Assembly: GCA_037481875.1 (NCBI GenBank)
Contig: JBBFKY010000001.1
Coordinates: 1 to 64,000 of the forward strand
Length of the DNA: 64,000 nucleotides
Direction of reading: 5' to 3'
Origin: Desulfosoma sp.
Lineage (GTDB): Bacteria > Desulfobacterota > Syntrophobacteria > Syntrophobacterales > DSM-9756
Shown: positions 1,730-9,807 of the stretch, piece by piece
Layout of the letters: the number at the start of each line of letters is the position of its first letter
How positions within the stretch are numbered: the stretch's first letter is position 1
Translations under genes and position numbers: made by a program
Notes under the pieces: generated by a model
What the model saw: the letters and a program-made list of their open reading frames with translations, nothing else
What the model was told of the DNA's origin: nothing
The model's database searches: none

Positions 1730-2061
1730 AAGGTCCCTTCGTGCCTTTTTGCGTTCACTGCTGAATGGCCATGAAAAAAACCATCCCTTGTGGTATGGTG
1801 GCTGAGGTTTGAGGGGGGAAATCTGAGGCCGCCCTTCTTTTCAAGTGACAATGAGACGCCGAGGTATGGCAAGTTCTCGGAAAAGCGCCCTTTCTGGAAC
1901 ATCCCATGCCGCATGGAAATGACCCATGGGCCCTTTATCCATAGCACAAAACCTCGAAGTTTGTCGATCCACGTGTGTTCGAATGCCAGGTTCTGGAAGA
2001 TCTGAAAGGTTTTCAAGGTTCCGCTTAAACTCGATAAAAGATGCGAGGTGACACGGAAGCG
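1730..2061. other. Intergenic region between divergent genes
   Basis: About 330 bases separate the binding-protein gene (minus) from the patatin gene (plus). No terminator, riboswitch or palindromic repeat is obvious. On the minus strand a frame that ends at 1841 reads convincingly as protein for some 60 codons, but it has no credible start codon and runs antisense into the patatin gene. I could not decide between a gene remnant and chance. Confidence 0.3.
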
Positions 2062-3159
2062 ATGGCGCAGTGGCTGGATTTCTACGCAGGTTCAAGCATC
2101 TTGGAAATGATTCGGGACGAAGGGCTTCGATGGGAACGCATTCAGGGGATGCTCGGGGCTGCTGGAGGTCCCAAATGGCTGATTCTCTGTGGATTGGATC
2201 GCGTGCTCTGCCGCCATTGGCTTCCTCATGCCGAAACCCCTTTGGATTTTCTCGGAGCCAGCATTGGAGCCTGGCGTTTTGCCGCCTATTGCCAGAAAGA
2301 TCCCGCAGCAGCCTTGGATCGATTTTTGGAAGCGTACCGAAGCCAGTCCTACAGCATGCACCCGACGCCTCAGGAGGTGACTCGAGTCCTCGGTGGCGTG
2401 CTAAGATCCTTTGTGGGTCATGAGGAGGCTCGGGACATCGCTTTCCAGAAAAAGCGTCGTCTTCACATTGTAACGATGCGTGGCCGAGGTTTATTGAACA
2501 GCCGGGCCACCTTTTCGGTGGCTCTGGGGCTTGCCGCAGCCTCGATGAGTAATGCCGTAGACCGAGCTTGGCTTCATGGATTTTTTGAACGAATCCTTTT
2601 TGCGCCTCCAGAAAGCCGTCTCTTGCGGCACTTGGACAAGAGCCTTTGGGCTTATCGTCTTGTGCCTTTGCAACCCGAGAACGTGATTCCGGCGCTTTTG
2701 GCATCCGGATCCATTCCGCTCCTTATGGAACCCGTCTTGGATATTCCAAAAGCACCTTCTGGGGTTTACTGGGACGGCGGGCTGATGGACTACCATGTCA
2801 CTGTCCCATGGCTTCAAGATTCCGGCGGCATTGTGCTTTACCCACACTATATGGACCGGCTTGTTCCCGGCTGGTTTGACAAACGCTTGACGAAGCGGCG
2901 TCCCAATGCAAGGTACCTGGATCAGGTGCTTGTGGTGGTACCTTCCCGTTCTTTTGTGGCATCTCTGCCGTATGGGCGCATTCCGGACCGAAAAGATTTT
3001 TGGATTTTTGCCGGGCAGGATTCCCAGCGCCTACGTTTTTGGGATACAGTGATGACAAAATCGCGTCTCCTGGGGGAAGAGTTCATGGAGCTGGTGCTTT
3101 CGGGCAGAATTCGAGACCGTGTCCGTTCCGTGGACGCCTTGGGCAACTCGTCGTCATAA
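2062..3159 (+). CDS. Patatin-like phospholipase
   Basis: A lipid acyl hydrolase of the patatin (PNPLA) superfamily, 365 residues from the chosen start. The three family signatures are present in order: a glycine-rich oxyanion loop (GAAGGPK, about residue 32), the nucleophile elbow GASIG with Ser about 67, and the catalytic Asp in DGGLMDYH about residue 238. No signal peptide or membrane segment is seen, so it probably acts in the cytosol or on the inner membrane face. I prefer the ATG at 2062 because GAGGTGA precedes it; an ATG seven codons earlier (2041) has no ribosome binding site. A GNAT acetyltransferase gene follows after 31 bases, so the two are probably co-transcribed. The natural substrate cannot be read from the sequence. 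Confidence 0.85.
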   Translation: MAQWLDFYAGSSILEMIRDEGLRWERIQGMLGAAGGPKWLILCGLDRVLCRHWLPHAETPLDFLGASIGAWRFAAYCQKDPAAALDRFLEAYRSQSYSMHPTPQEVTRVLGGVLRSFVGHEEARDIAFQKKRRLHIVTMRGRGLLNSRATFSVALGLAAASMSNAVDRAWLHGFFERILFAPPESRLLRHLDKSLWAYRLVPLQPENVIPALLASGSIPLLMEPVLDIPKAPSGVYWDGGLMDYHVTVPWLQDSGGIVLYPHYMDRLVPGWFDKRLTKRRPNARYLDQVLVVVPSRSFVASLPYGRIPDRKDFWIFAGQDSQRLRFWDTVMTKSRLLGEEFMELVLSGRIRDRVRSVDALGNSSS

Positions 3160-3190
3160 GCCTCGACTCTGCGGGCCAAGGAGCGCCTTT

Positions 3191-3613
3191 ATGGTTCGAC
3201 ACGCCGAAACCCGTGATTTGGAAAGGGTGGCCGAAATCGAACGTCTCTCCTTTCCCAACCCCTGGACACCCTATTATCTGGAAAACGCCCTCAAAGATTT
3301 TTTCCTGGTCTACGACGACGGTCATCAGGTGCAAGGGTACTTGGCGGCCACATGTCGGGACGAGGACCACAAAGCCGTCATTCTCAAAGTGGCTGTGCAT
3401 CCGGAAGCTCGAGGTCAAGGGATCGCCTCCAAACTCGTCCAAGGCGCGTTGGATGCCTTTCATCGGCGGGGTATCAAGAACGTGGAACTGGACGTGAAGA
3501 TCATCTCTGCAGGCGCTGTGCACCTATACGAAAAATTCGGCTTTCGCGTTCAACGCATGGTCACCATCGATGTGGACGACACCAGCTTTCTGGTGATGAA
3601 AAAAGAGATTTAG
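3191..3613 (+). CDS. GNAT N-acetyltransferase, RimI-like
   Basis: A 140-residue single-domain GNAT enzyme that transfers an acetyl group from acetyl-CoA to an amine. The acetyl-CoA binding motif (VAVHPEARGQGIASKLVQGA) and the following motif B (AGAVHLYEKFGFRV) are intact. The N-terminal part with SFPNPWTPYYLENALK resembles RimI, the enzyme that acetylates the N-terminus of ribosomal protein S18, but the family is broad and the substrate is not certain. The ATG at 3191 is preceded by AAGGAG at good spacing; the open frame extends upstream to 3119 but that part reads as non-coding. The stop codon overlaps the stop of the convergent kinase gene. Confidence 0.85.
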   Translation: MVRHAETRDLERVAEIERLSFPNPWTPYYLENALKDFFLVYDDGHQVQGYLAATCRDEDHKAVILKVAVHPEARGQGIASKLVQGALDAFHRRGIKNVELDVKIISAGAVHLYEKFGFRVQRMVTIDVDDTSFLVMKKEI

Positions 3614-5829
3614 GGAGAACCAGGGCTGCATACTCGAGTTCTTTGCAGGGCCTGAAGAATTCTTTCAAAACTAAAAGGCTTTTCAATAAAGTCTGCCGCC
3701 CCTTTGGCCAGCAACTCTTCGCGCTTTTCAGGATCTAGATATCCAGTGGCAACAATAACGGGAAGCTTTGGGTATCGCTTCAGAATTTCAGAAAGGCATC
3801 GAGCGCCGCCCATGCCCGGCATGTTGAGATCCAAGATGACGCTATCCGGCCTGGGCGCCATCGTGGCCAAAAGATCCAAAGCGGATTCACCGTCTGGCGC
3901 TGTGGTCACTTGCAATCCGTAACTTTCCAAAAGGTTCTGGCCGATTTCCAAAAGATGAGGCTCATCGTCCACCAATAAGACACGCAACCCTTTCAGATCT
4001 ACCTGAGCTGCCACTTGCCGATCCGGGGCCGTCTCCCTTGCAGGCGCTTGAGAGACGGGAAAATAGATGTGAAACCGTGTGCCCTTCCCGGGCTCGCTCT
4101 CACACGTGATGCCTCCTCCAAAGCGCTTGATGACACTATAGACAATAGCAAGCCCCAGCCCTGTGCCCTTGTCGGGGGTTTTGGTGGTGAAGAAGGGTTC
4201 ATAAATACGGTCTTGAATCTCCCGAGGAATTCCCGCCCCGGTGTCGGAGATGCTTAACCGTACCGTGGCTCCTGTACGAAACATGCCCAGTTTTTGAGCC
4301 AAAATCTCGTCGACCGTTGCCGGGGCGGTTGCAATGGTGATGGTGCCGCCGTCGGGCATGGCGTCTCGAGCGTTCATGACAAGATTCATGACCACCTGTT
4401 CCAACTGATTGGGATCGGCGGCAATTCTTCCCAGATGACTTTCAAGATGCAGATCCAATCGGTACATCTTTGGAAGAACCCGTTCCAGCATTTCACAAAC
4501 ACGCACCACAGCGGCATTGATGTCCACGGAAGCTACTTTTTCGTCGGTTTTTCGTCCGTAAATAAGAAGCTGCCGTGTGAGGTTGGCTCCCCGATTCACG
4601 GTCTCAAAAAGTTTGTTCAACAGAGGCCGATCGGGATGGTCGGCTTCCATGCGTCTGACAAGCATTTGTAAATAGCCGTGAATCATCTGCAAGATGTTGT
4701 TAAAGTCGTGAGCGATTCCACCGGCCAGAGTGCCGATGGCTTCCAGTTTCTGAAGTTGCACCAGTTCCTGTTCCATCTGTCTCTTGTCCGTCACATCCCG
4801 AGCGATGCACAGAAGGGCGGGACGCTGTTGCCATTCCATGGGAACCACGTTCATGTCCACCCAAACCGTGCGTCCCGACCGATGGTCGAGGCGCAAAGTT
4901 CTCAGTGGAGGCAGCGCTTGAGGGTTTCGTTCCAGAGCTTCAAAGAACTCCATAAGAGCATCTTGGTCTTCCAAGGCCACATATTCAAGCAGCAGGCTTT
5001 CTTCGATATCCGCTAAAGGTCGTCCTAAAAGGGTCTGGGTTCGAGGATTGGGGAAACGAATGCGCCCCTCTTGGCAGATGAAAATGGCATCATTAGCGTT
5101 TTCCACAAGATGCCTATATTTAGCTTCCGATTCCTCGACCGACGATTCTAACCTCTTGGAATACTGCTCCAGTTTGGCGCGTGTTTCCGCCAGTTCATGA
5201 CGAAGGACGAAGTCTCGCCATCTGTGGGTGTGATCTATGTGTGCGGCGATGAGAATAATAGAGAGTGTGCCCAAGATGAAAAGGTTATGAGCGAAAAAGG
5301 TACTGTAGGCCGGACTTGGATCGAAACCCAAAGCGCCTCCTACGTAGCAGGCATAGAGAAGAACCGTGTGTATCGCCAATGTTTTGACAGGAACAGGCAG
5401 AACCACGCAGTAAGAGAGAAAGACCAAATTGAGTCCGGCATAGTAAGGGGTCCGAGTTCCCCCCGTATCCACGATCATGGAGATGATAACCAAGCCGATG
5501 GCATAGAATGCCAGGGTGGCTAAAGCGAAACTAGGAAGGCGCCAACGTTGCTGCCGATTGAAAAGGTAAAGAACCCAGCAACTAATGCCCGCTCCAAGCC
5601 GGTAGACAATGAATTTTTCAAACAGGGATGGAAAGAGCAAAGCATCCAGAACGCCGAAAAGAGGCACAAGCGTGCCGCCCATGATCAAAATGACGTTGAC
5701 GCGAACGCGCAAAAGCGCTCGCATCTCCTCTTCAAAACCCTTCTTTAACATTTCCCGGTTGACCGGCGTGGGCAATGGAGGTGGCTTTTCCAAAGCCCAT
5801 GGGGCGCCGAAAGACTTTTCATTTGCCAT
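3610..5829 (-). CDS. Membrane hybrid sensor histidine kinase with receiver domain
   Basis: A 739-residue inner-membrane signalling protein. Six hydrophobic segments lie between about residues 43 and 198, followed by a short coiled coil (210-235), a PAS domain (about 235-350), the HisKA helix with the phospho-accepting His374 in GGIAHDFNNIL, and a HATPase domain (N box NLVMNARDA about 482-490, G1 DTGAGI about 529, G2 GTGLGL about 555). The C-terminus is a receiver domain with phospho-acceptor Asp667 in VILDLNMPGM. It should autophosphorylate and relay phosphate to its own receiver. No output regulator is adjacent. The gene lies 50 bases downstream of the cNMP-binding methyltransferase gene on the same strand. 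That arrangement, with a six-segment membrane sensor, recalls the PhcB-PhcS-PhcR fatty-acid-methyl-ester signalling genes of Ralstonia; this link is inference. Confidence 0.9.
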   Translation of the reverse strand: MANEKSFGAPWALEKPPPLPTPVNREMLKKGFEEEMRALLRVRVNVILIMGGTLVPLFGVLDALLFPSLFEKFIVYRLGAGISCWVLYLFNRQQRWRLPSFALATLAFYAIGLVIISMIVDTGGTRTPYYAGLNLVFLSYCVVLPVPVKTLAIHTVLLYACYVGGALGFDPSPAYSTFFAHNLFILGTLSIILIAAHIDHTHRWRDFVLRHELAETRAKLEQYSKRLESSVEESEAKYRHLVENANDAIFICQEGRIRFPNPRTQTLLGRPLADIEESLLLEYVALEDQDALMEFFEALERNPQALPPLRTLRLDHRSGRTVWVDMNVVPMEWQQRPALLCIARDVTDKRQMEQELVQLQKLEAIGTLAGGIAHDFNNILQMIHGYLQMLVRRMEADHPDRPLLNKLFETVNRGANLTRQLLIYGRKTDEKVASVDINAAVVRVCEMLERVLPKMYRLDLHLESHLGRIAADPNQLEQVVMNLVMNARDAMPDGGTITIATAPATVDEILAQKLGMFRTGATVRLSISDTGAGIPREIQDRIYEPFFTTKTPDKGTGLGLAIVYSVIKRFGGGITCESEPGKGTRFHIYFPVSQAPARETAPDRQVAAQVDLKGLRVLLVDDEPHLLEIGQNLLESYGLQVTTAPDGESALDLLATMAPRPDSVILDLNMPGMGGARCLSEILKRYPKLPVIVATGYLDPEKREELLAKGAADFIEKPFSFERILQALQRTRVCSPGSP

Positions 5830-5879
5830 GGTCTCTTACGTCTCTTCCGATCCACCGCCCTGAAACGGCAGCCGTTTTT

Positions 5880-7361
5880 TCAGCAAGCCTCGGCTGCAGG
5901 TTCACGATACGCGACGGCAAAAAGATTGATCCCTTCCGGTTCCGAAAGGCAGCGCACACGATGCCTAAAAGACGTTTCGGCAAATATGTCCCGTAGATCC
6001 TTTTCTGTTCTGTATATCAGCTTCCAATTCAAAATATGGTCCATGACAGCTCTATTCGGGTTGGATGGAGAAAAGTTGCCGACAATGAGGCATCCTCCGG
6101 GTTTTAACTGTTCGTAGCATCGACGGATCAAAGTGTTAAAGAGCCGTCGGTCCAAATAATCGGTTAAGCCGGCTGAATAGATAATGTCCTGTGGAGGCAG
6201 CTCCTGACGGGTTCGGCCCAGAGCCCAACGCACGGCGTTTTCATTCAGATAACGGATTTTGGCTCCATGAGGAAAGGTGTTCACTTTGGTATTGACGTAA
6301 TGTAGGGCTTCCACATCGGCGTCCATCAAGGTGGCTTCCACAGGATCCTGTAGGGGATATTCTTTGAGAAAATCAAAAAATTCTCGACTGGGCCCGCAGG
6401 CAAGATTGAGAATGCGAACGGGTTCATTGGAACCACACTTTCTAACCACATGCCGCTTTAATTCTTGGGCAAGCAATGACCGACGTCCCCGTACCGCTCG
6501 AGAAGCCGGCGTGTTTAGACACCACGTATCCACAAGGAGCCCCAGCTTTCCGTCTCCTGCAGGTTCATTCTTGTAAATCATTTCCATCATAAGAAAGTCG
6601 CCGGCATACCCTTTCGGTTTGTAATAGGCCCGTTCCGCAAAACGGCTTCTCATGAAGTAGGGAAAAATTTCCCTGAACACATAACCCCAAACATAATCTT
6701 GAAATTCACTTTCAGCGATGAGCGGTTCCAAATCCTGAAGGTTTTGGTTCAGCTGGTCGAGGATGGCCGTGCATCGTTCCTGGAGTTCTCGCACGTGTTG
6801 AGGGTTGCCGTTCTTTTGCACGGCATAGCTCAGATCAAAGAAATCTGCCTTGGTTTTTTCCACCAGTTCATGAACGATGGCTCCTTGGCGTGTGCGAATG
6901 AAGTCGTCGGGAACCGGGCGGGCTTCATAAAACTGTCTGCGTCCTGTGGATAGGGAGTCGGCATAGGCCGTCAGGGGTTCTCGTTCATCCAGAACACGGC
7001 GAAACTTGGCACAGACCGATCGCGCCACATCCGTGATAAAGAGGCTGTAGCGGTGCGGATCTTTAAAGCGTAAAGCCTCCATGGATTCCCAATCGACAAG
7101 GCGAAGGACGGTTCGTTCGGCGGCACGCACATCCCGCACTCTCGAAACACCGTCGAAAAAGCCCGTTTCACCGAAAAATTCCCCGGGGCCGAGATAAGCA
7201 ACAGCAATGGTCGTTCCGTTCTGGCCAAAGGCTACCTCCACGGCGCCCCGTTCCACATAATAAAGACACCGTTGCTGAGTGCCTTGAAAAAGGATCTTGT
7301 CGCCCTTGTCGAAAATGATCCTCTGCCCGATGGATTCCAAGACTTCCTGCCCGGCTTTCAT
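5880..7361 (-). CDS. Cyclic-nucleotide-binding domain fused to PhcB-like SAM methyltransferase
   Basis: A 493-residue cytosolic protein. Residues about 5-125 form a cNMP-binding (CRP-like) domain with the phosphate-binding cassette GEFFGETGFF. A helical linker follows (about 150-245) with GYAGDFLMMEMIY just after it. The C-terminal half is a class I SAM-dependent methyltransferase (RILNLACGPSREFFDFL; then ATLMDAD and SAGLTDYLD). The GYxGDFxMMxxIY segment is, from memory, a mark of proteins annotated as extracellular-factor (3-hydroxypalmitate methyl ester) synthesis enzymes, the PhcB type. An ATG at 7403 is possible, but the ATG at 7361 has AAGGAGGGAG upstream. The gene precedes the membrane hybrid kinase, suggesting a cyclic-nucleotide-gated methyl-ester signal made and sensed by neighbours. 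The substrate is unproven. Confidence 0.8.
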   Translation of the reverse strand: MKAGQEVLESIGQRIIFDKGDKILFQGTQQRCLYYVERGAVEVAFGQNGTTIAVAYLGPGEFFGETGFFDGVSRVRDVRAAERTVLRLVDWESMEALRFKDPHRYSLFITDVARSVCAKFRRVLDEREPLTAYADSLSTGRRQFYEARPVPDDFIRTRQGAIVHELVEKTKADFFDLSYAVQKNGNPQHVRELQERCTAILDQLNQNLQDLEPLIAESEFQDYVWGYVFREIFPYFMRSRFAERAYYKPKGYAGDFLMMEMIYKNEPAGDGKLGLLVDTWCLNTPASRAVRGRRSLLAQELKRHVVRKCGSNEPVRILNLACGPSREFFDFLKEYPLQDPVEATLMDADVEALHYVNTKVNTFPHGAKIRYLNENAVRWALGRTRQELPPQDIIYSAGLTDYLDRRLFNTLIRRCYEQLKPGGCLIVGNFSPSNPNRAVMDHILNWKLIYRTEKDLRDIFAETSFRHRVRCLSEPEGINLFAVAYREPAAEAC

Positions 7362-7657
7362 GGCAAGAAAACTCCCTCCTTCAGCTTCAGCGGGTCCCTC
7401 CATCGCTTTTCATGCCTTACAAGAAAATCGGCATTGATCGACAATGCCTTAAAGATTTTCAGGTGGCCGCCTGATTCAAAACAATCCACTGGAACCCATG
7501 ATCTTTGAATTTCTGGATATTTTTGAACCAGTTTTTCCGGCGCGACAGAAAGAGACTGAGAAAAGATCAAGGGCCCGCTTCTCGAAAATCTAGGGTAACT
7601 TATTGCCTTTTCAAGAAAAAACGTTCACGTGCCTTTAATATTGGATGGCTGAAAGGT

Positions 7658-8326: not shown

Positions 8327-9667
8327 TTAAAAGCCGGAAGCTTGTTGGCGCATGAGGTCAAGGGGCATTCCGGCGATCATTTTTTCCAATCCTTCCGGAC
8401 TCATGCCACAACGTTGCAGCGCAGGAATCACGGGTCGTGGATCCAGCCGTTCCAATTGACTTCCCGCGAGAAACCGGTTTGTGATGAAATCGGCCACGGT
8501 GATGAGGGCCACCTCTTCAGGAGTGGCCGAAACGCCCTCCGCCTTCGAGCTATGGTGTCCGGCAATCACATCGGCCACGTCCATGGGTATGTTCCAGTGT
8601 TGGACCAAAAGAGCTCCCACTTCCGTGTGATCCATGCCGAAAAATTCTTTTTCGATCTCTTTCAATGGGCGGTCGCCATGCTGGGCTTGTCGGTAGAACA
8701 GAGGGGCGTTCTCGGCTACCAATTGATCCAGGACGATCTTTCCGATGTCATGCAGCAACCCGTAAGTGTAGGCTCGCCCTTGGGGAAGCCCGAGCCGCTT
8801 GGCCATGAATTCGGCTCCCAGCGCCGTTGTAACGGCATGCTGAAAAAGACCGCCTTTGCATAAAGAATAGCCGCCGGTTCTGGAAGGGAAAACTGCGGAC
8901 AAAAAGACGGAAAGTGCCATTTGCAGGATACGCCTTTCGCCGAGAAAAACCAGCGCCCTGTCCAAGGAATCGATTTTTTCGGGAGCTCCATAGACGGGAG
9001 AGTTGCACAGGGCCAGCACCTTGGCCGCCAGCACCTGGTCCAAGCGAATTTCGCGGCTGATTTCTCCCATGTGGTAAGTTTCGGAACGCAAAAGGGAGAG
9101 AATCTTAAAGGCGGTTTGGGGAATGGGTTTGACGTCTTTGATGGCTCTTTCTAAAGCTTCCTTGTCCGGCTTGGAAATCTTTTCGGAACGTGCGGGCCGA
9201 AAAAAATGGCTACCCACGGGGACGATTTCCGGAGTCCAATCGCGGCAGTGCAGACGTAAGCAACAGGTAAAGGTCCCTCCTGTTTCACTGAGGATCACGG
9301 GAATTCGGGCCGCTCTCAAAAAAAGTTCCACGCGTTCCAGGGTACGCGCTCCCAATTGCAAGTCCAGCTGAACTTCATCACTGGGACCGACGATAGCCCC
9401 ACCGGCCACAGCCGCCCGCATGCGAAAAGGTTTGGCTCCTTTTTTCCCCAAGGCATCAAGGAACAAGGGAAGTCCTGTGGAAGCGTAACGCAAAGGTTCC
9501 GGAGGATCGAGGCTGGCGGTGAGAGGTTCGGCTAGGAGGGCGTGGAACAGGCCGCCCACTCCGGCTTCCTGATCCCACAGGGCCACCCCCACACAAGTGC
9601 CGAGATAAGCTTCAAGAACTTCATGGCCTTGACGGCAGATGGCCATATCGCCCGATGGTACAATCAC
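8327..9667 (-). CDS. CheD-HDOD fusion protein
   Basis: A 446-residue soluble protein joining two signalling modules. Residues about 1-160 are CheD, a chemoreceptor glutamine deamidase: the active-site Cys lies in YLGTCVGVALWD (about Cys25) and the His in GGLFHALL (about His42), with VAGGAIVG and VILSETGG in the usual places. Residues about 175-440 are an HDOD domain (KPIPQTAFKILSLL, CNSPVYG, GLLHDIGKIVLD, AGHHSS), a regulatory relative of HD phosphohydrolases. The start is taken as GTG at 9667 because AAGGAG sits six bases before it; a TTG five codons upstream is less likely. No chemotaxis genes lie nearby. The fusion suggests control of receptor modification by a stress or second-messenger input, which is inference. 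Confidence 0.85.
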   Translation of the reverse strand: MIVPSGDMAICRQGHEVLEAYLGTCVGVALWDQEAGVGGLFHALLAEPLTASLDPPEPLRYASTGLPLFLDALGKKGAKPFRMRAAVAGGAIVGPSDEVQLDLQLGARTLERVELFLRAARIPVILSETGGTFTCCLRLHCRDWTPEIVPVGSHFFRPARSEKISKPDKEALERAIKDVKPIPQTAFKILSLLRSETYHMGEISREIRLDQVLAAKVLALCNSPVYGAPEKIDSLDRALVFLGERRILQMALSVFLSAVFPSRTGGYSLCKGGLFQHAVTTALGAEFMAKRLGLPQGRAYTYGLLHDIGKIVLDQLVAENAPLFYRQAQHGDRPLKEIEKEFFGMDHTEVGALLVQHWNIPMDVADVIAGHHSSKAEGVSATPEEVALITVADFITNRFLAGSQLERLDPRPVIPALQRCGMSPEGLEKMIAGMPLDLMRQQASGF

Positions 9668-9807
9668 ATGCGCCTCCTTCAAGCCATTTGTGTCATTGTG
9701 CCCTCCCTATTTAAACACCACGCCGTCCTCGGGCAACACTCCAAAACAAAATTTTCTGGGTTGTCGGCAGGAGAAAAAAGAAAAACATCCTCGGGCGGAC
9801 CTGTCGG

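Follow-up and report, generated by a model that had tools for sequence, protein, structure and literature searches.

Does the sulfate reducer Desulfosoma sp. have the means to make and to sense a lipid signal of the Phc type? The question is raised by two neighbouring genes in the stretch of DNA analysed here (64,000 nucleotides, hereafter the window), for which a preliminary description had suggested a PhcB-like methyltransferase gated by a cyclic nucleotide and, next to it, a PhcS-like sensor kinase. The kinase gene lies 50 bp downstream of the methyltransferase gene on the same strand, a spacing that agrees with the earlier reading, and the other structural elements named there were also recovered (Table 1). 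These include the fusion of a cyclic-nucleotide-binding (CNB) domain to a SAM methyltransferase, seen as PF00027 and class I methyltransferase matches within one open reading frame, the latter spanning residues 273-437 of the 507-aa protein; the GYxGDFxMMxxIY segment, found as KPKGYAGDFLMMEMIY at residues 262-277; and the PAS, HisKA and receiver domains of the kinase, all of them above the Pfam cut-offs, as is HATPase_c. Hydropathy peaks over the first ~200 residues of the kinase are consistent with the six membrane segments described, one or two of them being weakly to moderately hydrophobic. Orthologues of the CNB-methyltransferase align from residue ~14-15, so that the alternative start of the gene (M15) is plausible. 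The Desulfosoma genome (3.4 Mb, 99.6% complete) holds the fusion as a single copy and, as expected for a sulfate reducer, encodes dsrA, which scored well above the cut-off.

Table 1. Features of the methyltransferase-kinase locus, with positions in the window.
Feature	Position	Strand	Details	Basis
CNB-methyltransferase fusion gene	5880..7403	-	507 aa, alternative start 7361	ORF and Pfam
CNB domain	7068..7313	-	residues 31-112	PF00027, E 7.8e-16
Phosphate-binding cassette GETGFFDGVSRVRDVRA	7122..7172	-	residues 78-94; Glu79 and Arg88 kept, then V-R	alignments of orthologues and distant CNB-methyltransferases
KPKGYAGDFLMMEMIY segment	6573..6620	-	common to PhcB as KPLGYAGDYxMVNQI	invariant KPxGYAGD columns in two alignments
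SAM-binding core of methyltransferase	6093..6413	-	residues 331-437	PF13649 just under cut-off; Rossmann-type strand/helix order (model); methyltransferase fold matches
Intergenic gap	5830..5879	-	50 bp, between methyltransferase and kinase genes	
Six-segment hybrid histidine kinase gene	3610..5829	-	739 aa	ORF and Pfam
PhcS-type six-segment membrane sensor domain	5155..5760	-		PhcS-only profile, E 4.6e-13; hhalign
GGTRTPYYAGLNLVF motif of sensor	5419..5463	-	common to PhcS as GxxSxYYAGLNLAIF	three alignments
PAS domain	4792..5121	-		PF00989, E 1.5e-9
HisKA phospho-acceptor domain	4546..4734	-		PF00512
HATPase_c domain	4051..4416	-		PF02518, E 5.9e-26
C-terminal receiver domain	3646..3981	-		PF00072, E 3.4e-27

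The genes around the pair were also inspected. The 3' end of a RimI-like acetyltransferase gene (3119-3613, +) overlaps the end of the kinase gene by 4 nt in convergent orientation, and is itself preceded by an overlapping gene for a patatin-like protein (2041-3159, +; just under the Pfam cut-off). Both are kept within the genus but are missing where more distantly related genomes carry the pair. On the other side, a 451-aa open reading frame (8327-9682, -) encodes an HDOD/HD domain (PF08668, E 2e-46) joined to a CheD-like domain (PF03975, E 2e-12), a fusion kept in two genomes of the same genus.

For comparison with the Phc system, PhcB and PhcS profiles were built solely from betaproteobacterial phcBSRQ operons of Cupriavidus, Paraburkholderia and Janthinobacterium, the PhcB sequence of R. 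solanacearum not being included. Scanning named genomes gave 80 loci in Burkholderiales, most of which have the phcBSRQ order (methyltransferase, kinase, receiver protein, PhcQ-like receiver protein), the third gene in Cupriavidus being mostly a ~380-aa receiver-kinase. The closest plasmid match to the window methyltransferase (E 1e-26) is part of a Paraburkholderia graminis operon of methyltransferase, short membrane kinase, receiver and receiver; save for this phcBSRQ-type operon, the plasmid collection yielded distant methyltransferases only. The reference set agrees with the published proteins. Position 22 of its 467-aa PhcB is an invariant Arg, matching R22 of R. solanacearum PhcB (PMC6989110), and the phospho-His of its kinases falls at 227-241, mostly 230-233, in agreement with H230 of PhcS (PMC11960443). 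C. metallidurans has a documented phcBSRQ operon (PMC2864759), and Phc has been reported to work in C. taiwanensis, as cited in PMC10653808.

Profile comparison shows both window proteins to be homologous to their Phc counterparts. The window-type methyltransferase half aligned to PhcB by hhalign over 295 columns (P 100%, E 3.5e-40) and the window-type membrane domain to PhcS over 199 columns (P 98.9%, E 2.3e-17). Because these figures rest on small alignments, we ran the Phc-only profiles on the whole genome as a control. At E<=10 the PhcB-only profile found a single match in the 3.4 Mb, the window methyltransferase (E 2.2e-41), and the PhcS membrane-domain profile likewise found the window kinase alone (E 4.6e-13); the two matches are neighbours, B preceding S. 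Generic similarity among membrane kinases as the source of the PhcS match is ruled out, there being no second match in the genome at that threshold. The relationship proposed in the preliminary description for the methyltransferase and for the membrane part of the kinase is supported by these searches. The window methyltransferase retains the PhcB-type motifs KPxGYAGD and YxAGLxDYL and the W-x-L-I-x-R segment, and the motif Gxx[ST]xYYAGLNL is common to the window-type membrane domain and PhcS.

The arrangement of the two genes is conserved well beyond the genus. In relatives that keep both genes and their order, the methyltransferase is 50-77% identical and the genes are spaced at -107 to +130 nt between longest-ORF bounds, negative values being overlaps; since both genes and their order are kept, the pairing is not due to chance. 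The PhcS-only profile matched eight of 39 genomes of the order. The PhcB-only profile matched the same eight together with G032, where the contig ends inside the gene, and gave one further, marginal match (E 0.006). The PhcB and PhcS matches are side by side in all eight jointly positive genomes. A survey of 395 genomes of the phylum, using profiles that contain both window and Phc types, found the methyltransferase in 36, the membrane sensor in 42 and both in 27 (Fisher p 1e-23, uncorrected for kinship). A PhcS-type six-segment sensor gene adjoins the CNB-methyltransferase gene in 20 of the 22 genomes of the phylum in which the latter was found, and the two-gene arrangement is thus conserved across Desulfobacterota, a point on which the earlier reading had hinged. 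The two exceptions are G032, cut by the contig end, and G195, with an unrelated gene on that side; the order of synthase then sensor is reversed in G160 only, where the sensor comes first. Adjacency confined to close kin was ruled out by the phylum survey. The idea that two genes with unrelated housekeeping roles came to lie together by accident is refuted by this conservation and by the joint presence or absence of the genes in the order, unless a shared-operon artefact arose in each lineage. Nothing was found in its favour, and we give it a negligible chance.

While the methyltransferase and the sensor stay together, the domains attached to them vary. Of 35 PhcB-type enzymes scanned, 20 bear an N-terminal CNB domain, 10 a PilZ domain and one a domain of HATPase_c_2 type. 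A profile of the PhcB N-terminus gave no match beyond chance in the CNB group, where the CNB domain takes its place. The PhcB N-terminus itself is predicted to form a six-stranded barrel and matches the PilZ profile weakly (P 13%, E 0.002), and we suggest, from this modelled fold, that it may be PilZ-like. The R22C substitution in PhcB slows the quorum response of R. solanacearum (PMC6989110), so the N-terminal domain matters for output, and the exchangeable N-termini found here suggest that this otherwise unexplained region of PhcB is a regulatory domain. The outputs of the sensor are equally diverse: a hybrid kinase in the window relatives and in families f39 and f82, a plain kinase in G030, and HD-GYP in families f15, f20 and f68. 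The HD-GYP protein of G167 falls inside the kinase clade (98/93) of the sensor tree, indicating that the output was swapped while adjacency to the methyltransferase persisted. Variable control and output around a fixed synthase and sensor is the pattern predicted by a signal-receptor pair, and this modularity is the strongest argument for such a function short of chemistry.

Several individual loci illustrate the range of these arrangements. At L194, L195 and L196 a CNB-methyltransferase gene is followed by one or two PhcS-type sensors, mostly fused to HD-GYP, and judging from domain content this is the same receptor wired to c-di-GMP breakdown. In G340 (L189 and L199) a PhcB-type methyltransferase, whose N-terminus resembles HATPase_c_2, an anti-sigma-kinase-like domain, lies beside two tandem PhcS-type sensor genes. 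The PilZ-methyltransferases of family f38 (L180-L188) occur in genomes that mostly also have a PhcS-type HD-GYP sensor, encoded elsewhere; that these cousins are not adjacent to their sensors counts against the pair model.

Taken together, we regard a synthase-receptor logic for the pair as highly probable. With less assurance, we favour the fuller model in which the pair is a PhcB-PhcS-like synthase and receptor with synthesis gated by a cyclic nucleotide through the CNB domain. In this model intracellular cyclic nucleotide, most likely cAMP, would bind the CNB domain and render the methyltransferase active. The enzyme would then form a small, lipophilic methyl ester, and by analogy the starting material would be a 3-hydroxyacyl precursor from fatty-acid synthesis. 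The ester would diffuse and be bound, as the putative ligand, by the six-segment membrane domain, and the ligand-bound sensor would act through the PAS/HisKA/REC phosphorelay to alter phosphoryl flow to a partner protein.

The identity of the signal is a separate matter. That the product is specifically a 3-hydroxy fatty-acid methyl ester is a tentative proposal, made by analogy with the 3-hydroxy myristate/palmitate methyl ester that the Phc system makes and senses. Identity is only ~26% to PhcB and ~20% to PhcS, and both window proteins fall outside the respective clades, so substrate and ligand may have changed. In the methyltransferase tree, PhcB (9 rows, 100/99) and the CNB type (20 rows, 99/95) form separate clades whose mutual closeness the tree does not settle, and in the sensor tree the PhcS clade (100/100) stands apart from the 14-row clade of the window (98/93). 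Scores against the PhcB profile were 114-171 bits for the CNB group, far below the 578-625 bits of true PhcB and not above the scores of the PilZ group (146-159) or L183 (176), with the wider methyltransferase family at 51-92 bits. These scores and the separate clades of enzyme and sensor speak for the alternative that the synthase makes some other lipophilic methylated compound, the ligand pocket of the receptor having changed to match. We consider this unlikely, given that KPxGYAGD, YxAGLxDYL, W-x-L-I-x-R and the YYAGL of the sensor are all retained. Structural comparison did not discriminate. In a sequence search of solved structures, phmmer matched CNB domains and the methyltransferase profile gave one chance-level match. 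Foldseek on models found class I methyltransferases with many different chemistries, the best match, 3ocj, having an unknown function. Neither search gives information on the substrate.

Another explanation is that no diffusible signal is made, and that the methyltransferase modifies a protein, such as the adjoining sensor in the manner of CheR, or a membrane lipid, and so adapts the sensor. Strict coupling of the two genes is likewise expected on this account, and the SAM core weakly resembles CheR (E 0.04 for the window protein; E<=0.01 for 13 of the 35 family members). The CheR match is limited, however, to the generic SAM-binding region, and the closest functionally known relative, PhcB, has been reported necessary for making the diffusible methyl ester (PMC6989110). 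Sensor adaptation of this kind is therefore a highly improbable account of the pair, and we retain the model of a synthase and its receptor.

Gating of the synthase would depend on the CNB domain, which scores 58.3 bits against PF00027, about twice the curated cut-off of 27.5. The cassette of the CNB-methyltransferases follows the pattern [FL]GE-x-[AG]-[FY]-[FIL]-[DE]-x2-[ST]-R-[VI]-R-x-[VIL]-[RK]-[AT]. Its Glu79 and Arg88 are invariant in eight aligned orthologues and recur in every distant CNB-methyltransferase for which the cassette could be read. Arg88 is followed by V-R or I-R throughout the group, in contrast to the R-[STA]-A of CRP and PKA, and as a result the ligand may be something other than cAMP or cGMP, or the site may be non-binding; binding of either nucleotide, as read from the cassette, is plausible but not assured. 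Many CRP-fold domains bind no cyclic nucleotide. This fact, together with the R-[VI]-R of the whole group, fits the alternative that the pair is a signal synthase and receptor in which the CNB domain has a structural role or responds to another cue. The retained Glu and Arg, the PF00027 score, a class III cyclase encoded in the genome and the presence of PilZ, another second-messenger domain, on sister enzymes all argue the other way, and we doubt that gating by a cyclic nucleotide is absent. The c-di-GMP gating also envisaged in the preliminary description is without support for this methyltransferase because its domain is a CNB domain; PilZ is found on its cousins. The cyclase (L132:814-2214, contig C3, 466 aa) is the one match to PF00211 (class III nucleotidyl cyclases) that the genome yielded; its hydrophobic N-terminus is probably a multi-span membrane region, and by eye its residues resemble those of adenylate cyclase.

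A survey of Proteobacteria reported the phc cluster from Betaproteobacteria only (PMC10653808). Our literature search, which covered few subscription journals, turned up neither a CNB-methyltransferase fusion like this one nor Phc-like pairs described from this group. If the pair is functional, sulfate reducers and many of their relatives would have a cell-to-cell language, none such having been found described for them in that search. Making the signal would then depend directly on cAMP, or on c-di-GMP in the PilZ-bearing cousins, and in several lineages its reception would be linked to c-di-GMP breakdown. Phc-type signalling may then be one branch of a wide modular family in Desulfobacterota and not a betaproteobacterial speciality, in which a CNB- or PilZ-gated methyl-ester synthase is combined with one six-segment receptor wired to a phosphorelay or to an HD-GYP c-di-GMP phosphodiesterase. 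We see the chances of this broader reading as close to even, though somewhat against it; if it is true, the coupling between an extracellular lipid signal and second messengers inside the cell would run both ways.

How, then, does the pair compare with systems already known? As in the Phc system of Ralstonia and Cupriavidus, the window protein has a homologous methyltransferase domain, the sensor is a homologous six-segment domain with a YYAGL motif on a histidine kinase, and the synthase gene is directly upstream of the kinase gene on the same strand. The differences are equally clear. The window protein has a CNB domain where PhcB has the N-terminal barrel with Arg22; its partner is a hybrid kinase with PAS and its own receiver, whereas Phc has a short kinase and separate PhcR and PhcQ; and enzyme and sensor are outside the PhcB and PhcS clades. 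The window operon ends after the kinase gene, so that phcR and phcQ do not follow, and a profile search of the genome at E<=10, run without a positive control, gave no homologue of the PhcQ C-terminus. Phc signalling ends at PhcA, a regulator of LysR type, and LysR proteins are so numerous that similarity in sequence is by itself a poor guide to a PhcA counterpart. Given the separate clades, the lack of a PhcB-type N-terminus and of a detected PhcQ, and PhcB-profile scores far below those of true PhcB, the pair is by its sequence Phc-like and not the Phc system in the strict sense. In G034 and G037 an opposite-strand histidine kinase and a receiver-kinase protein are found beside the pair (L038 12037-15449; L039 5714-9126), the receiver-kinase copy of G034 being 26.7% identical to PhcR over 397 aligned positions.

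Two further comparisons concern the sensor and one the synthase. PhcS-type domains match MASE8 (PF20968) weakly, with E 0.004 for the Paraburkholderia kinase and E<=0.01 for 3 of 27 members, whereas the window kinase has no match at E<=1; our literature search found no paper on MASE8. The catalytic core and C-terminal receiver of the window kinase resemble those of CckA-type hybrid kinases (322 bits), but the score is far below the cut-off of 1000 and the membrane input domain is of PhcS type. For the synthase, a parallel is Bd1971 of Bdellovibrio, in which a cAMP-sensing CNB domain switches on an enzyme (PMC6717892). Its CNB domain ranks with the best sequence matches of the window protein in the PDB, and both proteins fuse an N-terminal CNB domain to a C-terminal enzyme, which is an EAL c-di-GMP phosphodiesterase in Bd1971 and a methyltransferase in the window.
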